Positions 7,160 through 38,527 of a stretch of DNA of 52,157 nucleotides are shown in pieces (positions within the stretch are counted from its first letter, which is position 1; the number at the start of each line of letters is the position of its first letter). This stretch comes from Flavobacteriales bacterium (GTDB lineage: Bacteria; Bacteroidota; Bacteroidia; Flavobacteriales_D; Sanyastnellaceae): contig PKDZ01000028.1 in NCBI GenBank assembly GCA_002862785.1, positions 1 to 52,157 on the forward strand. Reading direction: 5' to 3'. A program made the position numbers and the translations under genes. The notes under the pieces were generated by a model. The model saw nothing but the letters and a program-made list of their open reading frames with translations, made no database searches and was not told the origin of the DNA.

Positions 7160-7256
7160 GCTGCAAGATGGTCCGCCCCGTCGGATAATCCACTTCGTCA
7201 TTGTCAGTGGCATTCCCATTGGATTTTATGACCTTCAAGAAGCCGAACCAAACCTC

Positions 7257-13651: not shown

Positions 13652-13666
13652 TCCCATACCTCCGAG

Positions 13667-14608: not shown

Positions 14609-14610
14609 TC

Positions 14611-15117
14611 ATGCGCCCATTGCGGTGTGCCATCCTGTTCATGTGGGCAGGCATCCTGTGTTCCCTTTCCCTAGCCGGTCAGAACGACTGTCCTCCACTG
14701 CCCGAATTGCGGACCGCCTTCCTCGGGCACAGCACCCTAGAGCAGGCCTTCGAATCCCGGACCCTTGCCGAGCGTCATCTTGAAGGCCGGACCGGGCCCT
14801 GTGCCGCCGTCATCAACGCCCACCGCTGGGTGTCGCACGCCCGAAGTGCCGACTTCGAATGGAACCCGGCCACGAAGCTAAACCGGCTCAACTCCGGCCT
14901 CGACAGCCTCGATGCCCTTGTCGCCCTCCACCCCGATCTCGACATCCTCAAGGCCCTGCGGTTGACCATCACCGGCACCGCACCCCGGTTCCTCGGAGTC
15001 AACGGTGACTGGCCGGTGGACCGGGCCGCCACCCAGCGGCTCCTCGATACGAACCATTGGGCAGAAAGCCCGAAATTTTCGGTCTGGATGGCCGATTTAA
15101 TGGAACAGACTGATTGA
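14611..15117 (+). CDS. Unknown secreted protein inside the carotenoid operon
   Basis: Not recognised. A 168-residue protein with a clear signal peptide (hydrophobic residues 6-22, cleavage probably near LAGQN). Two Cys residues remain in the mature part (NDCPP and TGPCAAV) and could form a disulfide. The remainder looks helical (LNRLNSGLDSLDALVALHPDLDILKALRL). It starts 2 bases after the crtB stop, and its TGA overlaps a TTG near the idi start, so it is embedded in the translation-coupled carotenoid cluster. The location suggests a role linked to pigment placement or envelope function, but this is inference only. Confidence 0.75.
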   Translation: MRPLRCAILFMWAGILCSLSLAGQNDCPPLPELRTAFLGHSTLEQAFESRTLAERHLEGRTGPCAAVINAHRWVSHARSADFEWNPATKLNRLNSGLDSLDALVALHPDLDILKALRLTITGTAPRFLGVNGDWPVDRAATQRLLDTNHWAESPKFSVWMADLMEQTD

Positions 15118-15125
15118 AACCGAAC

Positions 15126-15653
15126 ATGAACGAAACAATGGAAGAGCAGGTGGTGCTGGTCAACACCCTCGACGAGGCGCAAGGCACCATGGAGAAGATG
15201 GCCGCCCACCGGAAGGGGGTGCTGCACCGCGCGTTCAGCGTCTTCATCCTGAACAGCAAGGGAGAACTGCTGCTCCAACAGCGCGCCCACCACAAGTACC
15301 ACAGCGGAGGCCTCTGGACCAACACCTGCTGCAGCCATCCCCGCGACGGAGAAACCGTGATTGAGGCGGGCATCCGTCGCCTTCAGGAGGAGATGGGCAT
15401 GCAATGCCAGCTGGCCAAGGGCTTCGACTTCATTTACCGATCCGAACTCGACGGCGGACTCGTGGAGCACGAATTCGACCACGTCCTCTTCGGACGGAGC
15501 GATGTGGCCCCGGTTCCGAATCCCGAAGAGGTCGCGGACACGAAGTACGTCGATTTCGCCACGGTCCGGGCGGACATGGCAGCCCAGCCAAACCAGTACA
15601 CGACCTGGTTCCGCATCTGTTTCGAACGCGCCGCTGAGCACCTGGGAAAGTGA
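15126..15653 (+). CDS. idi: Isopentenyl-diphosphate delta-isomerase, type 1
   Basis: Nudix-fold isomerase (175 residues from this start) that interconverts IPP and DMAPP, feeding prenyl chains to carotenoids. The active-site Cys lies in TNTCCSHP (C68/C69) and the metal-binding Glu residues in RRLQEEMG. HRAFSVFILNSKGELLLQQRA is the usual N-terminal block. The ATG at 15126 (MNETMEE) was preferred; a TTG at 15114 overlapping the previous stop would add four residues. Its 3' end overlaps the GTG of the next gene. It complements ispH further along the window. Confidence 0.94.
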   Translation: MNETMEEQVVLVNTLDEAQGTMEKMAAHRKGVLHRAFSVFILNSKGELLLQQRAHHKYHSGGLWTNTCCSHPRDGETVIEAGIRRLQEEMGMQCQLAKGFDFIYRSELDGGLVEHEFDHVLFGRSDVAPVPNPEEVADTKYVDFATVRADMAAQPNQYTTWFRICFERAAEHLGK

Positions 15654-17128
15654 GCTCCGTCGCGGTCATCGGTGCCGGCATTGGAGGCCTCTCCACTGCC
15701 ATCCGCGCAGCCGCGGAAGGCCGGTCCGTGACCCTGTTCGAGGCTGCGCCCGAGGTCGGCGGCAAACTCCGCCAACTCCACCTTGGAAACTTCCGGTTTG
15801 ACCTTGGTCCCAGCCTGTTCACTTGGCCTGACCTCCTGCTGGAGACCTTGGCCGTCGCCGGGGCCCACGCGGCCCCGTTCGACCACACCCGCCTGGACCG
15901 CTCCTGCCACTATTATTGGGAAGACGGCACCCGCCTGATCGGCTGGACAGACCAGCAACGGTTGAAAGCAGAAATCGAAGAGGCCCTCGGCATCTCAGCC
16001 GATCCCGTCCTCCACCACCTTGACCTCAGTCGGAAAGGGTTCGAAGCCACCCGAGAACTGTTCCTCGAACAAAGCCTGCACGAAACCTCCAGTTGGACGC
16101 CAACCCGCACCGCACGCCACCTCGGAAAGGCTCTCCGCGCCTGGCAATCCCTGCCCCTGACCCATCGGCTCAACCGCTGGAACGCCCGGACAGGCCACCC
16201 TCACCTTCAACAACTGTTCAATCGATTCGCCACCTACAATGGCAGCGACCCCTACCGGGCGCCGGCGATGCTCCATGTCATCCCCCACCTTGAATTCGGA
16301 ATGGGCACGTTCGCCCCGGTCGGCGGCATGCACGCCATCGTCGACGCCCTGCACCAGACGGCTTTGGCCGTGGGGGTCGACATCCGCCTCAATGCCCCGG
16401 CGGACCGCATCGAGGTCGAAGAGAACCGCGTACGCGGTGTGCGGCTTCGGGACGGCCACCGACATGAAGCTGACGTGGTCGTCTCCGGCGTGGATGTGAC
16501 CCCGACCTACCGAATGCTCCTGCCGGATCAGCCCGCTCCGAAGCGCATTCTCAGCGCCGAGCAATCGACCAGCGGCGTCATCTTCTACTGGGGCATCCGG
16601 CACGACGCCCCGGACCTTCACCTGCACAACATCCTGTGGGCCGAAGATTACCGCGAGGAATTCCGCTGCCTGTTCGAAGAAAAACGCATCGCGGACGACC
16701 CGACCGTCTACATCAACATCGGGAGCAAGACGTCGCCGGCAGATGCTCCGGATGGAGCGGGCAACTGGTTCGTGATGGTCAATGCCCCCGCTGGCTGGGA
16801 TGCCACAGGGATTGACCCACTGCGAACCCGGGTCGAGCAGAAAATCCTGCGCATCACAGGAATCGATGTCGCGGCCCACCGCGAATGCGAGCACATCCTC
16901 ACCCCGAGTGACATTGCCTATCGCACAGGCAGCCACCTCGGCGCCCTCTACGGTCCGGCCAGCAACAAGGCCACAAGCGCCTTCCTCCGCCAACGAAACC
17001 GGGACCGCCGCATCCGGGGGCTGTACTTTGCCGGCGGAAGCGTTCACCCCGGAGGCGGGATTCCCCTGTGCCTCCTCAGCGGACGGATCACCCACGAACT
17101 CATGAAGCGCCATGACCCCCAGCACTGA
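15650..17128 (+). CDS. crtD: CrtD-type carotenoid 3,4-desaturase (CrtI family paralogue)
   Basis: A second FAD-dependent CrtI-family protein (492 residues), clearly distinct from the first: GAGIGGLSTAIRAAAEGRSV binds FAD, then EVGGKLRQ and DLGPSLFTWPDLL. The MGTFAPVGGMHAIVDALHQTA and GLYFAGGSVHPGGGIPLCLLSG blocks fit 1-hydroxycarotenoid 3,4-desaturases. Adjacent cruF supports this, since CruF makes the tertiary-alcohol end group on which CrtD acts. Start is GTG at 15650, overlapping the idi TGA. Specificity versus other CrtI-like enzymes (CrtN, ketolase-like) is inferred from context. Confidence 0.85.
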   Translation: MSSVAVIGAGIGGLSTAIRAAAEGRSVTLFEAAPEVGGKLRQLHLGNFRFDLGPSLFTWPDLLLETLAVAGAHAAPFDHTRLDRSCHYYWEDGTRLIGWTDQQRLKAEIEEALGISADPVLHHLDLSRKGFEATRELFLEQSLHETSSWTPTRTARHLGKALRAWQSLPLTHRLNRWNARTGHPHLQQLFNRFATYNGSDPYRAPAMLHVIPHLEFGMGTFAPVGGMHAIVDALHQTALAVGVDIRLNAPADRIEVEENRVRGVRLRDGHRHEADVVVSGVDVTPTYRMLLPDQPAPKRILSAEQSTSGVIFYWGIRHDAPDLHLHNILWAEDYREEFRCLFEEKRIADDPTVYINIGSKTSPADAPDGAGNWFVMVNAPAGWDATGIDPLRTRVEQKILRITGIDVAAHRECEHILTPSDIAYRTGSHLGALYGPASNKATSAFLRQRNRDRRIRGLYFAGGSVHPGGGIPLCLLSGRITHELMKRHDPQH

Positions 17129-17804
17129 GCGCGGCCTCTTCGGTTTCAGCGGATGGTGGATGTCCATGCCCGCCTGGATGGGGCTCATCGCCTTCCTCCA
17201 CGCCGTTGGTCTGGCCGGTGTTGTCCTGTATGACGCCTCCCTTGTGTTGGACCTGACCGTCTTCAATCTGCTGCTGTCGACCATCGTGGTCCTCGGGTTC
17301 GGCGACCCGAAGAATGGGGGGCGGTGGACCATGACCGGTTACATCACTTATGCGGTGGAAGTGCTCGGGGTACAGACCGGATTCCCTTTCGGCGACTACG
17401 AATACGGATCCCGCCTTGGCCCCCACATCTATGACACCCCCCCGATGATCGGCGTGCTGTGGCTCATCACCCTCAGTGGAGCCGTCTACTGGGCCGAGCG
17501 CCTGCTCACCGGCGGCGGGACCGCCCTCCACCGGATGGGCCGGGCCGCCATCGCCGCAACCATCATGCTCGCCTTTGACCTCATCATGGAGCCGGTCGCC
17601 ATGATGGCCGACTTCTGGAATTGGGCGGGAGACGACATCCCCCTGAGGAACTATGCCGCCTGGTGGGTCATCGCCTTCCTCCTCGCCTGGCTCTGGGGCG
17701 GAACGCGCAGCCGATCCTTCAGAACCAACCGTGCCGGGGGCCTGTTGCTCTTGGTGCAGACCGCCTTCTTCATCGGACTCCTCCTGTTGCCATGGACATC
17801 CTGA
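17112..17804 (+). CDS. cruF: CruF-type carotenoid 1',2'-hydratase (DUF422 family)
   Basis: A 230-residue polytopic membrane protein with about seven helices and the CruF hallmark segments VLGVQTGFPFGDYEYGSRLGP and DLIMEPVAMMADFWNW. CruF adds water across the terminal double bond of an acyclic carotenoid end, giving the 1'-hydroxy group of saproxanthin and myxol. The gene overlaps the crtD-like gene by 17 bases and crtZ by 13 bases, placing it firmly in the operon. Confidence 0.9.
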   Translation: MTPSTERGLFGFSGWWMSMPAWMGLIAFLHAVGLAGVVLYDASLVLDLTVFNLLLSTIVVLGFGDPKNGGRWTMTGYITYAVEVLGVQTGFPFGDYEYGSRLGPHIYDTPPMIGVLWLITLSGAVYWAERLLTGGGTALHRMGRAAIAATIMLAFDLIMEPVAMMADFWNWAGDDIPLRNYAAWWVIAFLLAWLWGGTRSRSFRTNRAGGLLLLVQTAFFIGLLLLPWTS

Positions 17805-18274
17805 CCGCCTCCCTCATCGTGCTCGCCACCTTCCTGACCATGGAGGGCGTGGCCTGGGCTGCCCACAAATACCTGATGCATGGCGCCATGTGGTACTTCC
17901 ACCGCGACCACCACCAGCACGAGCCGGGGTTCTTCGAAAAGAACGACGCCTTCTTCCTGATTTTCGCCGTGCCGAGCGCCTGGTGCTTCATCACAGGGAG
18001 CATTCACGCTGACTTCCGCTTCTGGATCGGCACCGGCATCGCCGCCTACGGCCTCTGCTACTTCCTCGTCCACGACGTGTTCATCCACCGCCGGTTCAGT
18101 TGGTTCCGCAACGCCAAGCACCCGTATTTCGCCGCGATCCGAAAGGCCCACAAGGTCCACCACAAGCACTTGGGAAAGGAGGATGGCGAATGCTTCGGCA
18201 TGCTGTGGGTGCCGCTCCGTTATTTCCGGGAAGCCCGCAAAGCCCACGAGGCCCGTACCTTGAGCCAGGGATGA
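17792..18274 (+). CDS. crtZ: Beta-carotene 3-hydroxylase
   Basis: A 160-residue membrane di-iron hydroxylase of the fatty-acid-hydroxylase superfamily that adds a 3-hydroxyl to a beta-ionone ring. The histidine boxes are all visible: HKYLMH, HRDHHQHE, HDVFIHRR and HKVHHKH. GKEDGECFGMLWVP near the C-terminus is typical. The frame is open upstream inside cruF, but the ATG at 17792 starts exactly where CrtZ homologues start. The stop overlaps the ATG of the cyclase gene (ATGA). Confidence 0.95.
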   Translation: MDILTASLIVLATFLTMEGVAWAAHKYLMHGAMWYFHRDHHQHEPGFFEKNDAFFLIFAVPSAWCFITGSIHADFRFWIGTGIAAYGLCYFLVHDVFIHRRFSWFRNAKHPYFAAIRKAHKVHHKHLGKEDGECFGMLWVPLRYFREARKAHEARTLSQG

Positions 18275-19050
18275 ATCCGCACTACCTCTATCTCACGGTT
18301 GACTTGGCTGTGCTGGCCGTACCGCTGGTCTTCAGCTTTGACCGCAAGGTGAGGTTCGTCCGCTTCTGGCCAGCGCTCTTTCCGGCCATCGCCGTGATGA
18401 TGGCCCTCTTCATTCCCTGGGACATCGCCTTCACCGAGCGGGGCATCTGGGGGTTCAATTCGGACTACCTGAGCGGCCTCTGGATCGCGGGCATTCCCCT
18501 GGAAGAGTGGCTCTTCTTCCTCTGCATCCCCTACGCCTGCCTGTTCACTTATGAATCGCTGAAGCACTACATCCCCAACCCCATCGGCGGCGCCATGGCC
18601 ATCCCGGCCAGCACCCTGCTCGCGATTCTCAGCGCCAGCCTGTGCGTGGCCAACCTAGACCGGTGGTACATCGCCGTGACCTGCGCCTTGACCGCCCTGC
18701 TGTCGGCCGGCCTGGCCCTTTCGGCCTCGCGCTGGCCCTCTGTCCGCGAATGGAACCACCGCTTGTGGTTCGCCTACCTCCCCCTTCTGGTTCCGTTCAT
18801 CCTATCCAATGGGGTCCTGACCGGTCTGCGCTTCTGGCAATACTCCCCGCTCAATCGAGAGGTGCAGGACATCGCCGACCAGATCGTGTGGTACAACAAC
18901 GACCACAACCTCCAGCTCCGCATCTTCTCCATGCCGGTCGACGACCTCTTCTACGGTTTCCTGATGATCGCGATGACCGTGGTGGCCTACGAACTGATCG
19001 CCCGCCGCCTGGGCCTCGTCACGGGATCGGCGCCTGCACCACGGCCGTGA
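18271..19050 (+). CDS. crtYcd: Lycopene cyclase, fused CrtYc-CrtYd type
   Basis: A 259-residue protein of about seven helices, made of two lycopene-cyclase domains in tandem (CrtYc/CrtYd architecture). Each repeat carries an IPLEEWLFF- or MPVDDLFYGF-type acidic motif preceding a conserved helix (residues about 74-86 and 225-240). It cyclises one or both psi ends of lycopene into beta rings. ATG at 18271 overlaps the crtZ TGA. It is the last gene of the operon and overlaps the convergent EEP-family gene by 32 bases, leaving no room for a separate terminator. Confidence 0.92.
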   Translation: MNPHYLYLTVDLAVLAVPLVFSFDRKVRFVRFWPALFPAIAVMMALFIPWDIAFTERGIWGFNSDYLSGLWIAGIPLEEWLFFLCIPYACLFTYESLKHYIPNPIGGAMAIPASTLLAILSASLCVANLDRWYIAVTCALTALLSAGLALSASRWPSVREWNHRLWFAYLPLLVPFILSNGVLTGLRFWQYSPLNREVQDIADQIVWYNNDHNLQLRIFSMPVDDLFYGFLMIAMTVVAYELIARRLGLVTGSAPAPRP

Positions 19051-26065: not shown

Positions 26066-27414
26066 CAGGCCGGCAATTCAGTTTCGGTGAAGGCGATGCC
26101 TTGTTGGGCCAGCCCTTTGAGCAGGGGGGCATACAAGTCGGCTGACGTGGGCAACAGGACTCCGGTCGCATTCCAATCGCCCCGCACCCACATCCGGGCG
26201 GCAAGGGCCAGCGGCAAGCCCACAGTGAGGGACATGGCCGTGTGGGTCTCATCCTCCCCGATGTGCACGAGGTGGGACGTCCGGACCCGGTTGCGGCCTT
26301 CCGGATCCCGGTAGCGGAAGCGGTGCCACATCACAATCATGTCGAGGTCGCCCGGCTTCAACGCCCAACGATCCTCCAACAGGGCCTGTAGGATGTCTGC
26401 CGGACTTCCCGACCCCTTCGGAAGGGGGGCATCCCCGAAGAGCCCGAGGTTGTCCAGCAAATCGAGGGCGCGGTCGCTGGCTCCAGTCGCCTTGGCCACC
26501 GCAGTACGGACCGCCTCGGTATCGGCCCCTTGCGGCACTCCGCCGGAGAATCCGGCCGTGAAGTCCCGCCACGTGGTTCCTTCCGGATAGGCCACCTGGG
26601 CATCGTCCCGGTTCATGCCCAATTGGAACACCGCATCCCATCCACCGCAGAATCCGTCTCCTCGGAGAGTGCCACGCACGAGGGTGTCGATGCCCTGAAT
26701 GCCGTAGATCTCCTCATAGGCGAGGGAGTCCCGATTGGCATACCCCTCAAACCGACCGGCGCCCGGCACATCCACTGCCGTGATTTCCTGAAACAACCGG
26801 TGCGGCGGCAGAACCCGGATGCGGCCATTCTCCTTGAACGTGGCCGAACCGCCTTGGCCCGCCAACACGACGTTCCGGGGATTCCATGTGAACTTGTAGT
26901 GCCAGGGGTTGTCGTCACTTTCCGGGGCGACGAGGCCCCCGGTGTAACTCTCGAATCCAGTCAGAGTGTTCCCCTCCGCGCGAAGGCCATCGATGACCTC
27001 CATCGCACTCAGGTGGTCGATGCCGGGATCCAGACCGAGCTCGTTCAGGATGGGAATGCCGGCCGCCTTCGCGTCGGCGTCCATGGCCGCAATCTCCGGA
27101 GAGAGATAACTCGGGGTGATGAGCGGGGTCCGGGTGGCAATGGCATCGCGCGCCACCTCGGGGTGCAGGAAGGCCGGCAGCATGCTGATGACCAGATCCG
27201 CCGCCTCGATTTCCTTTCGGCGCGCCTCGGGGTTGCCCGCGTCGAGAGCAAACGTGGACGCCGCAGGATGCCCCTCCGCCTTTCGCGCAGCCAGCTCCGG
27301 ATCGAGATCGCCAATGCGCACGGTGAATCCTTCATCGCCAGCATGCTGCAAGAGGTGACGAATCAGCGAGGAACTCGAACGGCCCGCTCCGAGGATGACA
27401 ATGCGCTTGGACAT
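26065..27414 (-). CDS. Saccharopine dehydrogenase family oxidoreductase (Lys9-like)
   Basis: A 449-residue NAD(P)-dependent enzyme of the saccharopine dehydrogenase family. It has the nucleotide-binding GAGRSSSSL at residues 8-16, NELGLDPGIDHLSAM and SYTGGLVAPESDDNPWHYKFTWNPRN-type substrate region, with EIYGIQGIDTLVRGTLRG further on. These fit the glutamate-forming (Lys9-type) dehydrogenase, which links 2-aminoadipate semialdehyde and glutamate with lysine metabolism. The ATG at 27414 was chosen from the conserved SKRIVILGAG start. Direction (synthesis or breakdown of lysine) is not decidable here, as no partner gene is nearby. Confidence 0.88.
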   Translation of the reverse strand: MSKRIVILGAGRSSSSLIRHLLQHAGDEGFTVRIGDLDPELAARKAEGHPAASTFALDAGNPEARRKEIEAADLVISMLPAFLHPEVARDAIATRTPLITPSYLSPEIAAMDADAKAAGIPILNELGLDPGIDHLSAMEVIDGLRAEGNTLTGFESYTGGLVAPESDDNPWHYKFTWNPRNVVLAGQGGSATFKENGRIRVLPPHRLFQEITAVDVPGAGRFEGYANRDSLAYEEIYGIQGIDTLVRGTLRGDGFCGGWDAVFQLGMNRDDAQVAYPEGTTWRDFTAGFSGGVPQGADTEAVRTAVAKATGASDRALDLLDNLGLFGDAPLPKGSGSPADILQALLEDRWALKPGDLDMIVMWHRFRYRDPEGRNRVRTSHLVHIGEDETHTAMSLTVGLPLALAARMWVRGDWNATGVLLPTSADLYAPLLKGLAQQGIAFTETELPA

Positions 27415-27535
27415 GCCCCGAATTTCGGAGGCAGGGATGGCGGGGCCAAGGATTGGATCGGAATACTTGGCACGGGACTTGTCTGAACGAGGGGGCCGCT
27501 GGCCTAATTTCAACGCTCACCTCAATCGTTTGCCC

Positions 27536-28900
27536 ATGATCCGCACCCGATTCCTTCTGCCCCTCTTCGGACTGGCCCTGGCCGTCGCGTCCTGCAACGG
27601 ACCGAAGTCACTGAGCAAGCGGGCCGGAGAACTGCATGCGGTTGGGTTCAACCAGCAGGCCGCCGACCTCTACGCCATGGCCCTGCGCAAGCGACCGGGC
27701 TATGTCGACGCCATGGTCGGTTTGAAGATGACCGGACAGGGTGTGGTGGATGCCCACATTGGAGAGTTCCAACGGGCCGCAATGGACGGCCGACGGGCAG
27801 ACGCCATCGCCGAATACGACCGGATGTCGGCCTTCAAGACCCGCGTCGCCGGATTGGGCGTCGAGCTCGTGGTCCCGGCCTCGGTCGAATCCGACCACAA
27901 CGACCTGGTGGATGAGCACCTCATCGAACTCGACGATCTCGGCCACGCCCAACTGGAGGAGGAAGCTTTTGCCGAGGCGGAAGCCACCTTCCGGGAAATC
28001 CTGCGCCTCGACCCGCAGTATGGAGAGGCCGCCGAGCTCCTCACCGTCGCCCGCGCCGAACCGAAATACCGCGCCGGCAAGAGCGCTTTGGAGACGGGGC
28101 GATTCCGGGAAGCCCACAGCGAACTGGGGCTGGTGCTCGCCCTCGATGCCGACTACAAAGACGCCGCGGACCTGCATGCCGAAGCGCTCGAAACGGGCCG
28201 GTTCAACGTGGCCATCTCCGACTTCGACTCCCGCAACCGGGACCGGGACGTCGCCCTCGAGCTCCGCAGTGGGGTCCAGCGTGGCCTGCTCGACTCCTCG
28301 GATCCGTTCGTGGGCGTGGTCGACCGCACCCTGCGCGAGGACATCATCGCCGAGCAGGAGCTTTCGCTGTCCGGCATCTCCGACGAGAGTGTGGAGGTCG
28401 GCGAGCTCGCCGGCGCCCGCGCCATCCTCACCGGCTCCATCCTCACCTATTCCGCCGAAACCGGATCGCCCCTGAGCACCCAGCGCAACGGGTTCAGGAA
28501 ATATTTCCGCGACGTCAAGGATGACGAAGGCAACATCAAGAAGGTCGCCGCCTTTGCCCCCGCCCGGTACACCCTGCACTCCCGCCGGCGCAGCGTCTTG
28601 CTCAAGTTCGAGATCAAGCTCATCAGCACCGAGACGGGCGAAGTCATGCTCTCCGAGGTGGAACAGGTGCACGCGCAGGATGCTGTGGAGTATGCCGTCA
28701 GCCAGGTCCCCGCCGGCAACCTCTACCCCGCCCGGGCCAACGGCGAGGTGGACCGCGGCGGCCGGTCCCGCATGAACGCCCTGCTCGGCGCCCGCCGCGA
28801 GTTGGCAACGGAAGCCTCACTGCGTGCCCAGGTCATCCAAGAAGCCACCGCCCGCGGCACGCGCGACATTGAACAGTTCCTCACCCGCCACATCGAATGA
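27536..28900 (+). CDS. Lipoprotein with TPR-like repeats and a CsgG-like domain
   Basis: A 454-residue protein. A signal peptide ends in the lipobox VASC (Cys near residue 20). Residues about 25-220 contain TPR-like helices (AGELHAVGFNQQAADLYAMALRKRPGYVDA-type and LEEEAFAEAEATFREILRLDP-type). The segment ELSLSGISDESVEVGELAGA followed by ILTGSILTY resembles CsgG/FlgO-family outer-membrane lipoproteins. Its stop overlaps the ATG of the next lipoprotein gene. The upstream open frame runs into the divergent dehydrogenase gene and was rejected as start because the signal peptide begins at 27536. Role in envelope assembly is inferred. Confidence 0.8.
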   Translation: MIRTRFLLPLFGLALAVASCNGPKSLSKRAGELHAVGFNQQAADLYAMALRKRPGYVDAMVGLKMTGQGVVDAHIGEFQRAAMDGRRADAIAEYDRMSAFKTRVAGLGVELVVPASVESDHNDLVDEHLIELDDLGHAQLEEEAFAEAEATFREILRLDPQYGEAAELLTVARAEPKYRAGKSALETGRFREAHSELGLVLALDADYKDAADLHAEALETGRFNVAISDFDSRNRDRDVALELRSGVQRGLLDSSDPFVGVVDRTLREDIIAEQELSLSGISDESVEVGELAGARAILTGSILTYSAETGSPLSTQRNGFRKYFRDVKDDEGNIKKVAAFAPARYTLHSRRRSVLLKFEIKLISTETGEVMLSEVEQVHAQDAVEYAVSQVPAGNLYPARANGEVDRGGRSRMNALLGARRELATEASLRAQVIQEATARGTRDIEQFLTRHIE

Positions 28901-30270
28901 GTCTCCGCACGTCCATATCGATTCTGGCCTTGATCCTGCTGGGCACCGGCTGCACCGGGCGCAGGGGCATGGAGCAGACCCCGCCCCCCTCATGGGTGGG
29001 TGAACGCCCTGTATCCAGCCTGCACTACATCGGCATCGGCAGTTCCACCTCGAATCCCATTCCGGGTGAAGCCCTGCGCACCGCCAAGGAGCGCGCTGCC
29101 GCCGACCTCGTTGGTGAGATCGCCTTGCGCGTGGAAAGCACCTCCCTGCTCGAAAGCGAAGAGCGGAATGGCCAGGTCCGGGAAGACTTCACGAACACCA
29201 TCTCCAGCCGGGCGGAAGAGCGCATCGCCGGATTTCAGGTCGTCGACGTGTGGGAAGGGCCGCAGGGCACCTATGTCTACTACCGTCTCGACAAGGCCCG
29301 CTATGCCGCCGAGCGGCAGGCCCGCCGACAGGAAGCCATCGACCTTGCCCTGCTCGAACATGAGGCCGGCAAACAGGACCTCGCCAGTGGCAACATCCAA
29401 GGCGCACTGGACCATTGGGGGGCCGGCGTTCTCGGTCTGGAAGAATTCTGGAATGAGGTCAACCGGGCCACCATCGAGGGCGTGGAGGTCAGCGTCGAGC
29501 CCCACCTGCTGCGCACGATGCGTGAAGCTGTGCGGAACATCGACCTGAATGCCGCCATGGACGTGGTCACCCTCAATGCCCGGGGAGACTTCCGCTTTCC
29601 GTTGGGCCTGCACGCCACCCTCGACGGCGGCAACGTCCGCGGCCTGCCCCTCCTGTACCGGTACCACAACGGCACCTACATGAAGAAGGCCACCGAATTC
29701 ACCGACGATGAAGGCACCGTGGTGGCCCTGATCAGCGACGTGGATCCCGCGCGGCCCGACCGGAACCTGACGTGCACCATCGACGTGGACCGCTTGACCC
29801 GTGCGGCTGGTCTGTCCTCCGTCCTGGTCGAACTGCTCGGAGACCTCGTGGTGGACGGCGTCACGCTCCCCGTGGAAGTGGAGATGCCTTCCGTCCAGAT
29901 TCTGCCTGCCCTGAACTCGCAACTCGACGCTGCGGCCCATGCCGGCCCCATCGCGGCCCTGCGCTCCCTGCTGTTGGAGGCAGGGTACATCGTGGTGGAT
30001 GCCGGAGCCGACAGTGATTTCAGCCTCTCAGTGGACCTGCGCGCCGAGCGCCGGACCCCCAGCGGGGACCTCGGCAACTTCCACACGGCCTATGTCCAAG
30101 GGGGGCTCGTCCTGCGCAATGCATCGGGCAACATCGTCCACCAAGCGGTTCTGGACCGCGTGAAGGGCGTCCAGCTGGATCCCGCCACGGCCCTGACCCT
30201 TGCCTTGTCCAACGCGGCTGAAGCCCTGCGCGAAAAACACGGATACGACCTCATCCGGGCCCTGCGCTAA
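28897..30270 (+). CDS. LPP20-family lipoprotein
   Basis: A 457-residue lipoprotein (lipobox LGTGC, Cys near residue 19). The first 150 residues, with PPPSWVGERPVSSLHYIGIGSS followed by an A-rich helix (ALRTAKERAAADLVGEIALRVES), match the LPP20 domain seen in FlgP/LPP20 lipoproteins. The middle is beta-rich without a family match. Residues near 340-450 may form a second domain like the C-terminal part of FlgT. It overlaps the CsgG-like gene by four bases. Confidence 0.8.
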   Translation: MSLRTSISILALILLGTGCTGRRGMEQTPPPSWVGERPVSSLHYIGIGSSTSNPIPGEALRTAKERAAADLVGEIALRVESTSLLESEERNGQVREDFTNTISSRAEERIAGFQVVDVWEGPQGTYVYYRLDKARYAAERQARRQEAIDLALLEHEAGKQDLASGNIQGALDHWGAGVLGLEEFWNEVNRATIEGVEVSVEPHLLRTMREAVRNIDLNAAMDVVTLNARGDFRFPLGLHATLDGGNVRGLPLLYRYHNGTYMKKATEFTDDEGTVVALISDVDPARPDRNLTCTIDVDRLTRAAGLSSVLVELLGDLVVDGVTLPVEVEMPSVQILPALNSQLDAAAHAGPIAALRSLLLEAGYIVVDAGADSDFSLSVDLRAERRTPSGDLGNFHTAYVQGGLVLRNASGNIVHQAVLDRVKGVQLDPATALTLALSNAAEALREKHGYDLIRALR

Positions 30271-30324
30271 CCACTTTGGCACGATATTGGCCCTACCCTT
30301 CACAAACCCACTAACACAAACGCT

Positions 30325-30897
30325 ATGACCCGTACTGCAATCCTCACCACGACGGGCCTGGTCCTCGGCCTGGCCGTCTTCACGACCGGCTGCAAGAAGA
30401 ACAAAGAAGTCGCCAAGCCAAAAGGCGAAGTCGAAATCGTCGAATTCTGCACCGGATCCGAATACAACAGCGACAGCAAGCACTTCCGCTCCACCGCCAC
30501 CGGCGAGAGCCAAGACCGCGAGATCGCCAAGAAAAAAGCCCGCTCCACCGCCGAAAGCCGCATTGCCCGGACTGTCAGCGCCACCATCCAAGCTGTGACG
30601 GACAACTACGTGTCGAGCACCGAGTTCAACAACCGCGAAGAGGCCACCGAGACCTTCAACGAGTTGGCCCGCACCGTCGTCGACCAGGAGCTGCGTGGCG
30701 CCATCGTCATCTGCGAGAAGCTCACCCAGCGCGAGAACGGGATTTACGTCGCCTACGTCGCCCTCGAACTCAGCGGCGAGAAATTCGCCTCGAAGTACAA
30801 CGAGAAGATCTCCGAGGACGAGCGCATCATGGCCGAGTACAACTACGAGCGCTTCAAGGAGACGTTCCAAGAGGAAATGGAGAAGCTCGGCAACTGA
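30325..30897 (+). CDS. Small LPP20-like lipoprotein
   Basis: A 190-residue lipoprotein with lipobox FTTGC (Cys near residue 24), then a Lys-rich linker and a domain with VEIVEFCTGSEYNSDSKHFR and a conserved helix ATGESQDREIAKKKARSTAESRIA, which is the LPP20-type pattern. The C-terminal 60 residues are predicted helical and acidic. It follows the previous gene by 54 bases and is closed by a terminator. Three related lipoproteins in a row suggest they form one outer-membrane complex. Confidence 0.78.
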   Translation: MTRTAILTTTGLVLGLAVFTTGCKKNKEVAKPKGEVEIVEFCTGSEYNSDSKHFRSTATGESQDREIAKKKARSTAESRIARTVSATIQAVTDNYVSSTEFNNREEATETFNELARTVVDQELRGAIVICEKLTQRENGIYVAYVALELSGEKFASKYNEKISEDERIMAEYNYERFKETFQEEMEKLGN

Positions 30898-32142: not shown

Positions 32143-35100
32143 TCAACGGATCAAACCCGATCCCTGGAAGCGTTTTTCCAACTTCACATCGCGCAACATC
32201 GACGACTTGACCGCCAGGCGGAGCTGCAAGCTCTGCTGGATGCCGAACGGCACCCACCGCGCCGAGAATTCCCAGCAGTGAAGGTCCCAAAGCAGGTTGA
32301 CCTGCGTGTTGGTGAACTCCCCCGCGGTGAAGTCATAGCCTGAGCCCACCGTCAGGCGCCAATCCTCGAAGAGCGTCACATCCCCATTGAACGTCAGGTT
32401 CTGGCTCAGGATGGTCGTGTCGGCCTGCAGATCCTGCCGCCAATTCCGTTGCAGCCGCAACGTGTAGCCCGCCCGGATGCTCCACGGGACCTCGCCCTGC
32501 CCGCTCCAACTGCCGTTCACCGATGCATTGGCCCGTTTGAGACGCAAGGGCGAACCGCCGCCCTCCCACAGGTAGCGGTCGATCTTCGCCCCGGTCGAAT
32601 CGCGGTCGTACACGCTGTGGGCGAAGCCAACATTGACCGGAAAACGCCCGGCCAGCGTGGTGAAGCCGGACCCACTGATGTCGCTCCACCGAATGGAATC
32701 CGCCTGCAGGTTGTGGCTCGCCCGGAGCGAGAGGTTGTCGATCAGACGGACCTTGCGCACCTCCCCTTCGCGGTCGCGGATTTTGGCTTCGAGGTTGTTG
32801 TTCAAGGTGAAATTCAATGCCCCCTGCGCCCCGATGTTCGCCGGCGTGTAGAGTCCGGGAGCCAGTGGATCGAAGACCTCGAGGATGCTCCCGTCCAGCC
32901 CGACGACCGTATCCCGACGCTCGAAGGCGGGGTTGTAACTGAATCCGACCTGGGGCGTGATGACATGCCGGATGGCGCGCAGGCGGCCCTCCCCCCGGTT
33001 GTTGAACGTCCCGTAGAACTTGGTGTTCGCGCTGACGCCCAGCCGCCAGTCACCATCCGTGTAGAACCCGCGCAATGTGTCGGTCACCACGCTGTCCGGC
33101 ACGTTCGGACTCACGGCCTTGTCAAGGGCGGCGAAATTCCAGTAGCCGTTGTACGACACGTTGGGCGTGAAGCTCACAAAGCCCGCCTTGATCTGCGTGG
33201 AGGCCGTCGCGGTGTGCCGGACCCCCGCTGTGGCCCGCTCAAGCAGTCCGGACAGACCCTCGTCGAAGAGGGTGCTGTCGGTCCCACTCACCTTTTGTTC
33301 CGACTTGAGCGCGTAGGTCACGCCAATCCGGTCATACCACTTGCGCGTAACCGCATCCGGGTCGAGCAGCCGGGACAGGGGGAGCTCGAAGCGGCTCACG
33401 TTGATGCCGAGCGAGGGCACGACGAGGTCCACCCGGTTCGTGCTGCTGTTCTGATTGTGGCGGGCCGTCGCCGTGATGCTCACGGGCTTCCGCGGAATCG
33501 AGGCATTGTAGTTGATGCTCGAGGAAAACGAATTGGACAGGAAATCCTCTTGCGAGCTGTTCAGCTGCGATCGGAAATTCCCGCTGGAACCGAAGTTGAC
33601 GTTGGCGTTGAACCGGCCATTGGGCCTTGCTTTCGGATCCTGACTGTGGCTCCAGCGGACAAAGAACTCCGTCCGTCGGGTCGCCCCAGGGTCACCCGCA
33701 GTGCCGCCCGAAACGATGCTCGACCGGGACACTTGAAGGTTGCCATTGAACCGATATCGGTACCGGTACTGCGCGGTCCCCGCCAGACGCCAAGTCCCCC
33801 GGCTGTAGAGGTCGCCTTGGATGCGAGCATCCCAGTGCTCGCCCAGCGGTTCGTACCAGCCCAGGTCCTTGATGAAATAGCCCAACTCGCGCCCATTGCC
33901 GAAGCTCGGGAAGATGAGACCCCGGCTCCGCTCCTGCTTCTGGGGGAACCAGAAGAACGGCAGTCCGATGGGCAGGGGAATCTTCCGCACCTTGACGTAC
34001 ATCGGACCGCTGACCACCTTTTCATCCGGAATCAAGAGACCGCGGGTCAGATGAAAATGGAAATGCGGGCGCTCCGCATCGCAGGTGCTGAACATCCCGC
34101 CCCGCAGAAAGATGCGCCCGTCCGGGAATCGCTTGGCCCGCTGGGCGTGAAAGGTCAATTCGCCCTCTTTCGTCACAGCCTGTCGGCTCAGGCCCTTCCG
34201 GCTGTCCAGGTCGTAGCGCAGGCCTTCCTGGGTGAACGACTTGCCCCCTTGGGTGAAGACCGGCTTGCCCTGAAGCGCCCCCGTGCTGTCGGGAACACCG
34301 GCCGCCTCGATGATGCGGTCCCCGGCGAAATAGTCCACCTCGGCCGCGGTAAGCTCGATGCCATCGGTCTCCACCTTGGCCTCCCCATGCAGGGCCACTT
34401 GCTCTTCCCGGACATGGAAAAGGATGCTGTCCGCGGCGGAATACACAATCGGCTCCTCCCCGTTCGGTCGCAATGAGTCCGGTGGCGCCTGCCATGGCAA
34501 CACGGGCAACGGCGCCGCTGTGGCCCCTGCGCCGCGTTGCAGGGAGTCGGGGCGGCTGCGGAGAACGAAGCCCGGCAGGTGGGCCGCATCAGGGGCGCCG
34601 TCCAGAGGGTGATCCCCCAAGGCGGCGAGGTCGGAGAACCGACCGGATGGGGCCGAGAACAGGGCAATCGATCGCAGGCCAGCACTGTCCAACGCCATGC
34701 GGATTTCCGTGCAAGCCGCACGGTTGGCCTGAGGAAGTGGAAACGGCAGGCTGTCTGCACGGGCTTGCGCCTCGGCCGCGGTGTCGGGCTCGGCGAAATA
34801 GAGGGTGCGCCCGTTGCCCACCATGTTCAGGATTTCCAGACGGCCGTCGGCAAACAAACCATCGAGGTCCCGGCCGGCCAACTGGTGGTGGAACTCCCGA
34901 CCGGCGGGACTGGCCACGAAAGCGTGGCCTCGGACCTCGAGGCGTTTCGGCGCCCCGTCCGAGAGGAACAGCCGCACGGAATCCCCGGTCAACTGGTCCG
35001 AACCATTCCACATCACGGGGGCGCCTTCGAGGTTTATCCTCCCCGCGTCCTCGGACCAGGTCAGTCCGTCCGCCGCTGCTGTCACTTCCCCGAAATGCAA

Positions 35101-36105
35101 GAAAGTCCCCGATCGGGCCGCGAGTGACCGTCCGTCTGGTCCGTCGGCGATGTCCATTTCCGGGGCCGCAACGCGCAAGGGGTCCTCTCCATCATAGAGC
35201 CAGGCCACAGAATTTCCCTGGAGCGCCACGTCGGAACCGATGTCCCCATCGGCATCCGCCCGGTTGAAGCGGACCGTGTCGGCCACCAGCCGGTAGGTCG
35301 TCGCAGTGTCGCGCAGGACGACCTCTCCATAGGCCAGACCCAGCGTATCGCCCATCACCAGGCTGTCCGCCAGCACCACCAGCGCACCATCCCGGAATCG
35401 AGCCCGAACCGAGTCCCCTCCGGCAAACCAACCGGTCTCCGACTCCATGGACCAGCGTCCCCGCGAGCAGGCGATGCCCCCACCAGGATGCATCACCTCC
35501 GCCTCCACAGGAAGGTCGAGCCGCCGTCCCTCCGGACGGTAACGCACGGTTTCGGAGCGGACCTCGACGGTGTCCACCGACATCCTGACAGCCCCATTGA
35601 ATTCCATGGTCCCCGCTTCCCGATCGTACCATCCGGAGCGGCTCTCAATGCGCTCGGTCTCGGTGGTCACGACCCCACTGCGATCAAAACGGGCCAACCC
35701 AGATCGAAAATCGTACGTGGTCCGCTCGGTGGTCAAGGTTCGGGGCTCCTGCGGGTCGGTGGAATCCACCAGCTTGACCACCCGGCCGGTCATTCGGCCG
35801 ACGCCGCTGTCGGGAACCAGTTCTAGGACGTCACCGGTCAGGACGGCGGGGCCGTCTGTGGCCTCAACCCGCCCCATCAAGCGGAAGCGACCGGTCGGAT
35901 ACCGCCAAGCACTGTCGCACACGACCTGCGCCTCTCCCACCGAGAGAAGCACATCGCCCACGAGCCGCTGGGCCTCAACGATGGCGGGATCTCGGCTGAT
36001 TTCCGAGGCGCGCCGAATCTCCACCTCAATGGACTGCGCCAGGGTGATGAAGGGCAGGACCAGAAGGCCCCATGAAAGAAACACGCGCCGGACCGCGTTG
36101 TCCAT
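32143..36105 (-). CDS. lptD: LptD-like LPS-assembly outer-membrane protein with fused OstA-like N-terminal half
   Basis: A 1320-residue exported protein with a signal peptide (residues 1-21, ITLAQS). Residues about 22-500 are OstA/LptA-like beta-strand repeats (GDVLLSVGEAQVVCDSAWRY, RTTYDFRSGLARFDRSGVV). A Pro/Ala-rich linker (about 505-550) follows. At about residue 553 EEPIVYSAADSILFHVREEQ begins a second start-like segment typical of separate Bacteroidota LptD proteins, with GGMFSTCDAERPHFHF, then the beta barrel to the end. LptD inserts LPS into the outer leaflet. A perfect minus-strand -7 box (TAGCTTTG) lies at 36203-36210. The amidase gene is divergent. Confidence 0.88.
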   Translation of the reverse strand: MDNAVRRVFLSWGLLVLPFITLAQSIEVEIRRASEISRDPAIVEAQRLVGDVLLSVGEAQVVCDSAWRYPTGRFRLMGRVEATDGPAVLTGDVLELVPDSGVGRMTGRVVKLVDSTDPQEPRTLTTERTTYDFRSGLARFDRSGVVTTETERIESRSGWYDREAGTMEFNGAVRMSVDTVEVRSETVRYRPEGRRLDLPVEAEVMHPGGGIACSRGRWSMESETGWFAGGDSVRARFRDGALVVLADSLVMGDTLGLAYGEVVLRDTATTYRLVADTVRFNRADADGDIGSDVALQGNSVAWLYDGEDPLRVAAPEMDIADGPDGRSLAARSGTFLHFGEVTAAADGLTWSEDAGRINLEGAPVMWNGSDQLTGDSVRLFLSDGAPKRLEVRGHAFVASPAGREFHHQLAGRDLDGLFADGRLEILNMVGNGRTLYFAEPDTAAEAQARADSLPFPLPQANRAACTEIRMALDSAGLRSIALFSAPSGRFSDLAALGDHPLDGAPDAAHLPGFVLRSRPDSLQRGAGATAAPLPVLPWQAPPDSLRPNGEEPIVYSAADSILFHVREEQVALHGEAKVETDGIELTAAEVDYFAGDRIIEAAGVPDSTGALQGKPVFTQGGKSFTQEGLRYDLDSRKGLSRQAVTKEGELTFHAQRAKRFPDGRIFLRGGMFSTCDAERPHFHFHLTRGLLIPDEKVVSGPMYVKVRKIPLPIGLPFFWFPQKQERSRGLIFPSFGNGRELGYFIKDLGWYEPLGEHWDARIQGDLYSRGTWRLAGTAQYRYRYRFNGNLQVSRSSIVSGGTAGDPGATRRTEFFVRWSHSQDPKARPNGRFNANVNFGSSGNFRSQLNSSQEDFLSNSFSSSINYNASIPRKPVSITATARHNQNSSTNRVDLVVPSLGINVSRFELPLSRLLDPDAVTRKWYDRIGVTYALKSEQKVSGTDSTLFDEGLSGLLERATAGVRHTATASTQIKAGFVSFTPNVSYNGYWNFAALDKAVSPNVPDSVVTDTLRGFYTDGDWRLGVSANTKFYGTFNNRGEGRLRAIRHVITPQVGFSYNPAFERRDTVVGLDGSILEVFDPLAPGLYTPANIGAQGALNFTLNNNLEAKIRDREGEVRKVRLIDNLSLRASHNLQADSIRWSDISGSGFTTLAGRFPVNVGFAHSVYDRDSTGAKIDRYLWEGGGSPLRLKRANASVNGSWSGQGEVPWSIRAGYTLRLQRNWRQDLQADTTILSQNLTFNGDVTLFEDWRLTVGSGYDFTAGEFTNTQVNLLWDLHCWEFSARWVPFGIQQSLQLRLAVKSSMLRDVKLEKRFQGSGLIR

Positions 36106-36202
36106 GTGGGCAACAACGCGGAATTCGTCCTGTCGGTATGCGGTCTGGTTTGCCAACAACGGGCGGCGAAAATTCCGGGCACATCCGCGCCTGAATGCCT
36201 GT

Positions 36203-36210
36203 CAAAGCTA
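36203..36210 (-). promoter_or_regulatory. -7 box (TAGCTTTG) upstream of lptD
   Basis: On the minus strand TAGCTTTG matches TAnnTTTG exactly, about 98 bases before the lptD ATG. TTTG 15 bases further upstream (36226-36229 on plus) is a -33 candidate, although the spacing is shorter than the usual 19. Confidence 0.45.
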
Positions 36211-36228
36211 GATAGTTTCACTCCTCAA

Positions 36229-37467
36229 ATGGCGTCGACCCACACCCCCCTTTCCCACAGACCGGCCCGGAGACCGAGGCGGTGGAAGATGGCGGTCTTC
36301 GTCGCCTGCGGAGGCGTGCTCCTGGTGGGCAGCGCCTTTCACCCGCCGGCCGAACCGGCCATGACCGTGGTAATTGATGCCGGACACGGCGGAAAAGACC
36401 CCGGCAACCTGGGAACCGGCCGGTACCGGATCGCCGAAAAGGACATCACCCTGGCGGTCGCCAAGAAAACCGCCGCCTACATTGAGGAGCGCATCCCCGG
36501 GGTCCGCGTCATCATGACCCGCACGGACGACACCTACCCCGAACTCTCCGACCGGGTGCGCATCGCCAACGAAGCCGAGGCCGACCTTCTGCTCTCCATT
36601 CATTGCGACAGCTTCGACAAATCCTCGGTCACCGGCAGCTCCACCTTTGTGATGGGCCTCGACAAGAGCGAGGCCAGTCTGCGTGTCGCCGCCCGGGAAA
36701 ATGCAGCCGTCTTCAACGAAGCCGACACCCGCGGATTTGACCCGGACGACCCCGACACCTTCATCGCGCTGGCCCTCAAGCAGGAAATCTACCTGGGCCG
36801 AAGCCTCCAGCTGGCCGAACTGATCCAGACCCAGTTCCGGGAGAGGGTCGGCCGCAAGGACCGCGGGGTTCGACAGGCGCCCTACTACGTGACCGCGTAC
36901 GCCAACATGCCGAGCGTGCTGGTCGAGCTCGGGTTCCTGACCAACCCGACCGAAGAGGACTTCCTCCACTCCGAACAAGGACAGGACTACATGTCGAGTG
37001 CCCTCTTCCGCGCCTTCCGGGACTACGCCAAGCAGTGGTTCAGCCTGGAGGCCGCCGTCTTGGAAGCCAATGAATCCGAACCGGAACCCGAAGCAGTGGC
37101 ACAAGGCCAACCCAATGGGAAAGCGCCAACCGAAGACGGGGTCGAAACCGCAAGGGCCACCCCGGAATGGCATGCCACCCTCTCGGCAGCATGCGACGGA
37201 GACGCCCTGTGCTTTTCGGTACAAGCGGCGAGCAACCGCCGTGGCGGTCCTCTGATGGGGTCCGATGGAATCGAGATCCCCCACGCCACAAAACAACAGG
37301 TCGGACCCGTGTACAAGTACCGGGTCGGGTCCTCCGAATCCTATGCGGAAGCCTGCCGGATGCGCGATACCTTGCGGAAGAATGGCTTTCCCGACGCCTT
37401 CGTCGTGGCCTTCGAGAATGGAAAACGAATTCCGCTTGAAGCCGCATTGAAAAAGGCCCGGAATTGA
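36229..37467 (+). CDS. N-acetylmuramoyl-L-alanine amidase with C-terminal SPOR-like domain
   Basis: A 412-residue exported amidase_3 enzyme that cleaves the MurNAc-L-Ala bond of peptidoglycan. A transmembrane/signal segment lies at about residues 21-37. Zinc ligands are His53 (VIDAGHGGKDPG), Glu70 (AEKDITL) and His125 (LLSIHCDSF), with catalytic Glu233 (VLVELGFLTNP). The C-terminal 90 residues (KYRVGSSESYAEACRMRDTL, FVVAFENGKRIPL) resemble a SPOR domain, which binds denuded glycan at division sites. It leads an operon with the MCE gene 13 bases downstream. Confidence 0.93.
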   Translation: MASTHTPLSHRPARRPRRWKMAVFVACGGVLLVGSAFHPPAEPAMTVVIDAGHGGKDPGNLGTGRYRIAEKDITLAVAKKTAAYIEERIPGVRVIMTRTDDTYPELSDRVRIANEAEADLLLSIHCDSFDKSSVTGSSTFVMGLDKSEASLRVAARENAAVFNEADTRGFDPDDPDTFIALALKQEIYLGRSLQLAELIQTQFRERVGRKDRGVRQAPYYVTAYANMPSVLVELGFLTNPTEEDFLHSEQGQDYMSSALFRAFRDYAKQWFSLEAAVLEANESEPEPEAVAQGQPNGKAPTEDGVETARATPEWHATLSAACDGDALCFSVQAASNRRGGPLMGSDGIEIPHATKQQVGPVYKYRVGSSESYAEACRMRDTLRKNGFPDAFVVAFENGKRIPLEAALKKARN

Positions 37468-37480
37468 CCCGACCCAGCGA

Positions 37481-38527
37481 ATGCAAAAAGGCAGGGAAAT
37501 CAAAGTAGGTGTGCTCGTCCTGTTGGGCGGCATCCTGCTTGTGCTCGGCGTGAATTACCTCAAGGGATTCAACCCGTTGGGCAATGGCCGTGAATTCCAT
37601 GCGGTCTACGAGCGCATCGACGGTTTGGCCGTGTCCAATCCCATCGTGGTCAATGGCTTCAAGGTGGGGCAGGTTTCCAGCATCGATTTCGATGCACGCG
37701 GCACCGGGGCTCTCCACGTCACCTTTCTCATCGACCAGCCCAACCTTCAGCTCCCCGACGACACCAAGGCCCGAATCGTTTCCAACGACTTGTTCGGCAC
37801 CAAGGCCATCGACCTCATCGCTGGACGAAGCGTGGAGCTGGCCCAAGCCGGAGACACCCTGCCATCGGAAATTGAAATGGGCATCGCCGAATCCGTGAAG
37901 CAGGAGCTCATTCCGCTCCGCCAACGGACCGACCAGCTGATCGCCGGGGTCGACGAGATTCTCCTGAACCTTCAAACCGTCTTTCAAGACAGTGCCACCC
38001 AAGGCCTGCCCAAGGCATTTGAAAGCATCCAGCGGACGATGGAAAACCTCGAGAGCACCTCGCGCACGCTCGACCTGACCGTCGCGGAGAACCGCGCGGC
38101 ACTCAATGGCATCGTCAACAACATGGAGGAATTGACCGGCTTCATCAATGACCAGCAAGGCAACCTCTCCAATGCGCTGGGCAACTTCAGCCAGATTTCC
38201 GATTCACTGGCCAGCCTCGAGCTCGCCTCCACCTTGCGCCAAGCCGACGCGTCCATCGCCGAGCTGAACCGCCTGCTCGAAGGCCTGAATGCCGGCGAGG
38301 GCAGCCTCGGCAAGCTCCTTCAGAGCGACAGCCTTCACGATGGATTGATCGCCACCAACAAGGAACTTCAATTCCTGCTGAACGACTTGTACCTCAATCC
38401 GCAGCGGTACGTGCGCGTTTCCGTGTTTGGAGGGAAGGAAAAGCGGAAATTGAGCGAAAAGGAACTCGAACGCCTGCAGCGCCTGATCGACGCCGAACTC
38501 GACGAGCGCGAAGCCGGCGGGAACTGA
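37481..38527 (+). CDS. MlaD-like MCE domain protein
   Basis: A 348-residue protein with one N-terminal transmembrane anchor (about residues 9-27), then one MCE domain (residues about 38-115, RIDGLAVSNPIVVNGFKVGQ, NDLFGTKAIDL). The remaining 200 residues are long helices (for example TLDLTVAENRAALNGIVNNMEEL-type) ending in a basic tail. MCE proteins carry phospholipids between inner and outer membranes with an ABC transporter (MlaEF). The transporter genes are not in the window. The tight spacing to the amidase and the iron-sulfur genes is typical of Bacteroidota. Confidence 0.9.
   Translation: MQKGREIKVGVLVLLGGILLVLGVNYLKGFNPLGNGREFHAVYERIDGLAVSNPIVVNGFKVGQVSSIDFDARGTGALHVTFLIDQPNLQLPDDTKARIVSNDLFGTKAIDLIAGRSVELAQAGDTLPSEIEMGIAESVKQELIPLRQRTDQLIAGVDEILLNLQTVFQDSATQGLPKAFESIQRTMENLESTSRTLDLTVAENRAALNGIVNNMEELTGFINDQQGNLSNALGNFSQISDSLASLELASTLRQADASIAELNRLLEGLNAGEGSLGKLLQSDSLHDGLIATNKELQFLLNDLYLNPQRYVRVSVFGGKEKRKLSEKELERLQRLIDAELDEREAGGN

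Follow-up and report, generated by a model that had tools for sequence, protein, structure and literature searches.

A genus-specific fusion of an OstA-like protein with LptD in Sanyastnellaceae (Flavobacteriales)

The window analysed in this study, i.e. the whole stretch of 52,157 nucleotides on contig PKDZ01000028.1 (assembly GCA_002862785.1) of a Flavobacteriales bacterium from the family Sanyastnellaceae, contains on the reverse strand at positions 32143-36105 a gene that joins two known components of lipopolysaccharide (LPS) export, namely an OstA-like protein of the LptA type and LptD. This fusion is specific to one genus of uncultured Flavobacteriales, and its product is most likely a permanent, covalent 1:1 LptA-LptD bridge-plus-pore.

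Results

The gene is a single open frame of 1,320 residues counted from the ATG codon, and the same frame stays open for another 32 codons upstream, up to position 36201. Two Pfam families exceed their cut-offs within this frame, OstA_2 (PF13100) at residues 28-183 with 30.4 bits (cut-off 21.2) and LptD_2 (PF19838) at residues 697-1166 with 419.1 bits (cut-off 22.5; profile positions 1-464), which bears out the proposal of a preliminary description of this DNA that an OstA-like protein and LptD share one polypeptide of 1320 residues. PF03968 (LptA/LptD_N) is also above its cut-off for the whole protein (22.7 versus 20.4 bits), with the best stretch at residues 337-381 and no single stretch passing alone.

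For a finer delimitation of the two halves, we built profiles of our own from stand-alone proteins, 21 of them OstA-like and 9 of them LptDs, all of these seeds being members of their families by their own scores. The OstA-like profile covers residues 8-493 (40-525 of the open frame) with model positions 7-475 of 506, and the match of the LptD profile (model positions 63-715 and 747-855 of 860) begins at residue 550. Profiles rebuilt from 28 OstA-like and 20 LptD proteins gave the same picture. The two halves thus match their families independently when searched separately, and the junction lies where the preliminary description had placed it, near residue 553; most matches of stand-alone LptDs start at residues 550-553. 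The OstA-like nature of the first 500 residues or so was likewise correctly recognized there, but the extent was set a little too short: in an alignment with 9 stand-alone OstA-like proteins the C-terminus can be traced to approximately residue 525.

From the N-terminus onwards, and always on the reverse strand, the protein consists of a signal peptide recognized by a hydrophobicity scan (residues 1 to ~24, positions 36034-36105), the OstA-like (LptA-like) part (residues ~25-525, 34531-36033) as delimited by OstA_2, our own profiles, the jellyroll fold and the C-terminus alignment, the Pro-rich linker that had already been noticed (residues ~526-552, 34450-34530), which is poorly predicted and variable among the relatives, the N-terminal jellyroll domain of LptD (residues 553 to ~696, 34018-34449), located by the starts of the stand-alone LptD matches and a match below the cut-off to TIGR03002, and the LptD barrel part (residues 697-1320, 32146-34017), supported by LptD_2 and by the structures of LptD cores. 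In the most divergent member of the family of fusions (L073:4698-8696 of genome G004) the halves are joined with almost no linker, the other members having a longer Pro-rich one.

Two alignments were used for the fused proteins, A1 with all 14 fused loci and A2 with 13 of these 14 (without L062) and 11 stand-alone LptDs from the other 61 loci. Cys675 (34081-34083) and Cys1277 (32275-32277) are invariant in the 25 rows of A2 (14 fused, 11 stand-alone). They could link the LptD N-domain to the barrel, and we take them to parallel the cysteines of E. coli LptD. In the OstA-like part, Cys63, Cys213 and Cys465 also occur in 9/9, 9/9 and 8/9 stand-alone OstA-like proteins, respectively. Because of the invariant LptD pair and these shared cysteines, both halves can be said to keep the usual features of their families.

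Only one export signal was detected. The hydrophobicity peaks at the N-terminus (mean of 2.21 over 15 residues from residue 8), and the scan revealed no second signal-like stretch near the junction, the maximum being 1.01 within residues 400-720 and 1.63 (at residue 241) anywhere outside residues 1-30, compared with 1.86-2.68 in the signal regions of nine stand-alone LptDs. It seems from the sequence that the LptD half no longer has an export signal of its own and relies on that of the OstA-like half, which in turn is no separate periplasmic protein, as it lies in the same open frame as LptD.

The structure was predicted with AlphaFold2 in two overlapping models, model 1 for residues 22-720 (15 alignment rows) and model 2 for residues 121-1320 (25 rows). 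Model 1 shows strands over residues ~46-436 with block means of the predicted local distance difference test (pLDDT) mostly above 80 (dips to 56), a linker of low pLDDT and a moderately predicted LptD N-domain. In comparisons with VIA-align, residues ~43-181 match LptA, LptH and LptC with Z-scores of 14.4-16.1 and root mean square deviations (rmsd) of 1.8-2.3 over 118-135 residues, among them LptA 2r1a (Z 16.1, rmsd 1.8, 123 residues), LptC 6mit (Z 15.5, rmsd 2.3, 135 residues) and LptH 4uu4 (Z 15.1, rmsd 1.9, 123 residues). In model 2, LptA aligns at residues ~121-241 (Z 17.2, rmsd 2.0) and LptC at ~225-371 (Z 13.5, rmsd 3.5), and there are therefore jellyroll repeats along the OstA-like part. 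Since the confidently predicted stretch is about three times as long as the part to which LptA aligns, one OstA-like unit may span most of the periplasmic gap.

The mean pLDDT of model 2 is 66.7, and a jellyroll N-domain of LptD followed by a large beta barrel is predicted with middling confidence. The C-terminal part aligns with LptD cores by VIA-align over 366-460 residues (Z 10.9-13.1, rmsd 7.6-10.2), and when the profile of alignment A2 was compared with solved structures it matched LptD 8h1r (E 5.1e-7) and LptD 7omm (E 3.2e-4) as well as LptA chains. The second part can be placed with the LptD barrels less surely than the first part with LptA, LptH and LptC. The jellyroll array joined to a barrel that had been expected from the sequence is nevertheless what the models contain. 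Whole-length LptD alignments (rmsd 10.7 to 26.6 for model 1 and 25.9 to 35.4 for model 2) were not counted as evidence.

For the distribution of the fusion we surveyed 114 genomes of the family, 17 of them (16 with an LptD match) from the genus of the window and 97 from 20 other genera. Twelve genomes of the genus, that of the window included, possess a whole frame of 1333-1365 residues; OstA_2 is above its cut-off in the same frame in 11 of them, and in the twelfth (G004) the OstA-like part is recognized by our own profiles only. In three further genomes (G003, G015 and G011, the latter equated with locus L066 via its frame length of 1197 residues and the position of the match) the frames are cut at contig ends and yet carry the junction. 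The apparent split of the gene in G003 is a contig break, because the two facing ends have 42 identical residues within the gene in common. Leaving aside two uninformative genomes, G002 with a frame cut before the junction (641 residues) and G007 (67% complete) without a match, the fusion is therefore present in all 15 genomes of the genus that are informative.

In the other 20 genera the junction occurs in none of the 92 genomes with an LptD match, the best frame having at least 842 residues in 76 of them and being shorter, and probably truncated, in the other 16. The longest LptD frame of the family outside the genus has 966 residues, apart from one of 1188 residues in G553 whose extra length lacks an OstA match. 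Just as the preliminary description had assumed for the relatives, a separate OstA-like gene, with a frame of 513-566 residues, is present in all 20 genomes compared, one from each other genus. The objection raised there, that close relatives might all carry an LptD of this length with nothing but the standard N-domain in front, does not hold: LptDs of the same length were found in the same genus only, all with the OstA-like part, and the LptDs of the 20 other genera are without it. At the level of the 75 named loci, the 14 loci L062-L075, with best-segment identities to the window of 49% to 96%, carry the junction and L076 is cut before it, while in L077-L136, where several frames are cut, no LptD-matching frame holds an OstA-like match.

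A search of 392 genomes of the phylum for OstA_2 (379 matching) revealed no other fusion among the matches listed, the longest frame of which has 934 residues; a similarly divergent fusion would fall among the weaker matches outside these. The same result was obtained among the listed matches of LptD_2 in 155 genomes of the order (150 matching) and in 153 of the phylum (153 matching). As this was not an exhaustive survey, there may be rare fusions elsewhere in the phylum. We also inspected the longest LptD frames listed outside the genus (G167 with 1433, G553 with 1188, G182 with 1101 and G102 with 1083 residues), and neither of our profile sets found an OstA-like match in them. As their seeds come from Flavobacteriales, these profiles could overlook an OstA part that has diverged very far. 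Inspection by eye attributes the additional residues of G167, G553 and G102 to open frame upstream of a signal-like start, and those of G182 to a Pro/Thr-rich N-terminal extension.

The genome of the window is 98.49% complete and contains one OstA_2 match and one LptD_2 match. The search for a further OstA-like gene that had been suggested thus yielded no second OstA_2 match in this assembly. Of the other Lpt components, LptC gave one match and LptF/G gave two.

The LptD neighbourhood is conserved. On one side there are proteins of the CsgG-like and LPP20 types, one of 190 residues, a class-I glutamine amidotransferase and a protein of the L-PSP/RidA type; the opposite side has a divergent frame for an N-acetylmuramoyl-L-alanine amidase (36106-37467 on the forward strand, with the true start inside; Amidase_3), an MlaD-domain protein (37481-38527, forward strand; MlaD) and two redox-type proteins (iron-sulphur and CCG). 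This order is kept in four sister genera (G018, G020, G025 and G029) as far as the stretches reach. The genes at 27395-30897 (forward strand), encoding the CsgG-like/tetratricopeptide-repeat, the LPP20-type and the 190-residue protein (no Pfam match at E 0.001 for the latter), also adjoin LptD in sister genera and are possibly an uncharacterised outer-membrane lipoprotein operon.

The stand-alone OstA-like genes of the sister genera are located elsewhere. In G018 the order is RelA/SpoT, OstA-like, Fur and PurA, in G020, G025 and G028 the gene lies beside trigger factor and ClpX, and in G029 it is found approximately 3 kb from PurA (Fur, PurA, trigger factor and ClpX were named by Pfam in one locus and elsewhere by similarity). 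In G024 the OstA-like gene adjoins PurA, with two genes, those for the amidase and MlaD, between it and LptD. In the genome of the window, RelA/SpoT and PurA frames are adjacent with no OstA-like gene between them, and the stretch with trigger factor and ClpX has no OstA-like gene either. The PurA gene crosses a contig end, and its far side is visible only on a 3.5-kb contig (L163), where there is no OstA-like match. In the closest sister genera, the stand-alone OstA-like genes occur in at least two different neighbourhoods and are fast evolving, with end branches of 1.01-1.65 (L144, L146, L148, L150 and L154) versus a tree median of 0.71.

Midpoint-rooted trees were built for LptD from 20 chosen rows and for the OstA-like part from 23, and in both the genus forms one clade (support 100/100). 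Genera g3, g5, g10 and g14 are nearest to it in either tree, joined in the OstA tree by g13 (G028), whose LptD is a fragment and was left out of the LptD tree. The window row in the OstA tree is longer than the other fused rows (592 versus 447-487 residues), probably due to a clip over more than one profile match, and five other fused rows form the same clade with it. The stem of the genus is long, with 0.75 (LptD) and 1.24 (OstA) changes per column. Both halves descend from within the family, and the concordance of the trees fits a single event on the stem of the genus in which the lineage fused two genes of its own, rather than gene transfer.

Two features of the window lie apart from this subject. 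A frame at 7113-10193 (forward strand) encodes 1,026 residues of a Cys- and Asp-rich repetitive protein, built from units like one of 18 residues, without a Pfam match at E 0.001. The region 12107-19050 presumably holds a run of carotenoid-synthesis genes, labelled by eye (two desaturase-like, one phytoene synthase-like and further membrane proteins).

Discussion

The fusion is real and genus-wide: the joined frame, its distribution, the predicted folds of its parts, the lack of a separate OstA_2 gene and the origin of both halves within the family all follow from the results above. A near-complete OstA-like protein, i.e. the LptA type of Bacteroidota, was joined in frame ahead of mature LptD, thereby replacing the signal peptide of LptD, and the stand-alone copy disappeared. 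Taking all parts of the explanation jointly, including the working of the protein as a covalent 1:1 bridge-plus-pore, we consider it highly probable. The product would be exported as one chain; once its barrel is assembled in the outer membrane, an LptA-type jellyroll would be permanently attached to it and reach towards LptC of the inner membrane. LPS could then slide from LptC through the OstA-like groove and the LptD N-domain into the pore. That the OstA-like part carries LPS between LptC and LptD is suggested by its fold, by the gene content of the genome and by the order of the parts. LptC, LptA and the N-domain of LptD together make up a single groove in the proteobacterial periplasm (PMC7347655), and the C-terminal strand of LptA has been implicated in the contact with LptD (PMC7237710). 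The order found here, with the OstA-like C-terminus leading into the LptD N-terminus, agrees with the published contact. With the jellyroll permanently attached to LptD, the LptA-LptD joint would be a covalent 1:1 link in place of a contact made by strands docking onto each other.

Such a one-chain unit would rather likely abolish the docking of LptA to LptD together with any check on bridge assembly that depends on it, so that a bridge is permanently present on every translocon and only the contact to LptC is made and broken. Bridge formation is generally considered to depend on LptD being correctly assembled.

Several results weigh against this explanation or limit it. The equivalog profiles of NCBIfam do not recognize the protein: TIGR03002 (LptA) reaches 31.5 bits, below its cut-off of 71.7, with a match at residues 548-607, i.e. 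in the LptD N-domain, and NF003358 (LptD) only 13.3 bits versus 944, so that the protein is assigned to PF19838 and not to NF003358. A genome search with PF03968 at E 0.001 found nothing, but it also missed the fusion itself and Bacteroides ihuae, and a divergent second LptA is therefore possible. The structural scores are not exclusive, since MORN-repeat proteins are the best unrelated rows for model 1 (Z 11.5) and unrelated barrels reach scores like those of the LptD cores with model 2, over roughly half the number of residues, namely BtuB (Z 12.4, 224 residues) and VDAC (Z 11.4, 241-243 residues). How the OstA-like part is seated on the LptD N-domain is not fixed by the models, owing to the low-pLDDT linker and predicted template modelling scores of 0.63 and 0.39. 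Furthermore, the LptA role of Bacteroidota OstA-like proteins goes back to domain resemblance and to failed deletions of the presumably OstA-like PGN_1553 in Porphyromonas gingivalis (PMC3684754), and a protease could cut the linker after export.

The latter point leads to the main rival of the function as a single chain that we infer. The fusion might be a precursor only, exported as one chain and cut by a periplasmic protease in the exposed Pro-rich linker, with a separate OstA-like protein and LptD as in other Bacteroidota as the result. The linker is predicted to be disordered and varies between the relatives, and the OstA-like part retains most of its natural C-terminus, so that the released halves would look normal. 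On the other hand, the most divergent member has almost no linker to cut, even though this is thin evidence, and we regard processing of this kind as unlikely.

Slightly less likely still is an N-terminal half that is not the working LptA but an extended periplasmic domain of LptD or an assembly or scaffold module, with the gap being filled by another, unrecognised protein or by LptC alone. This would go along with the modest OstA_2 match of 30.4 bits and with the faster evolution of the OstA-like part, which in 11 of 14 relatives is 55-62% identical to the window compared with 84-86% for the LptD part. Moreover, no Bacteroidota organism is named in the 50 structure matches listed, and the bridge might therefore be built differently in this phylum. 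However, the N-terminal half covers the family of stand-alone OstA-like proteins over almost its full length and groups with those of the sister genera, and the genome has no other OstA_2 match, all of which speaks against this reading. An artefact of assembly or gene calling that merged two adjacent genes through a missed stop can practically be dismissed although the named relatives are all metagenome-assembled, since the same continuous frame is found in 12 genomes and the junction in three more, the named relatives are 49-96% identical in the best segment, the LptD signal peptide is gone and no stand-alone OstA_2 gene was found in the genome.

Compared with known systems, the first half resembles the stand-alone OstA-like proteins of Bacteroidota (PF13100) in its near full-length profile coverage, its cysteines, its C-terminus and its jellyroll fold, and differs from them in being joined to LptD, whereas the other 20 genera of the family have a separate frame. 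The second half resembles Bacteroidota LptD (PF19838) in the whole barrel profile, the N-domain, the invariant cysteine pair and the gene neighbourhood, but it has no signal peptide or start of its own and carries approximately 550 extra residues in front. The folds of the two halves and their order along the bridge are also those of proteobacterial LptA/LptH and LptD (PMC7237710). Proteobacterial LptA, in contrast, is a small protein on its own, and how many copies of it each bridge contains is debated (PMC7347655), while one longer unit is fixed to each LptD here. In Porphyromonas gingivalis, PGN_1553 with its LptA/C/D-like domains and the LptD protein PGN_0884, neither of which the authors succeeded in deleting (PMC3684754), are probably the same two kinds of components, encoded there by two genes. 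Our literature search, covering the accessible parts of open-licence papers, did not find a natural LptA-LptD fusion.

The fusion leaves exactly one LptA-type unit for each LptD, which is of interest in view of the debated number of units in the bridge (PMC7347655), and it suggests that LptA and LptD need not be separable. That it would tie the periplasmic bridge functionally to the pore, as anticipated in the preliminary description, may well apply if the protein acts as one chain. The gene also represents a ready-made construct for structural work on the whole bridge-plus-pore, and it supports the view that the OstA-like proteins of Bacteroidota are the LptA of this phylum.

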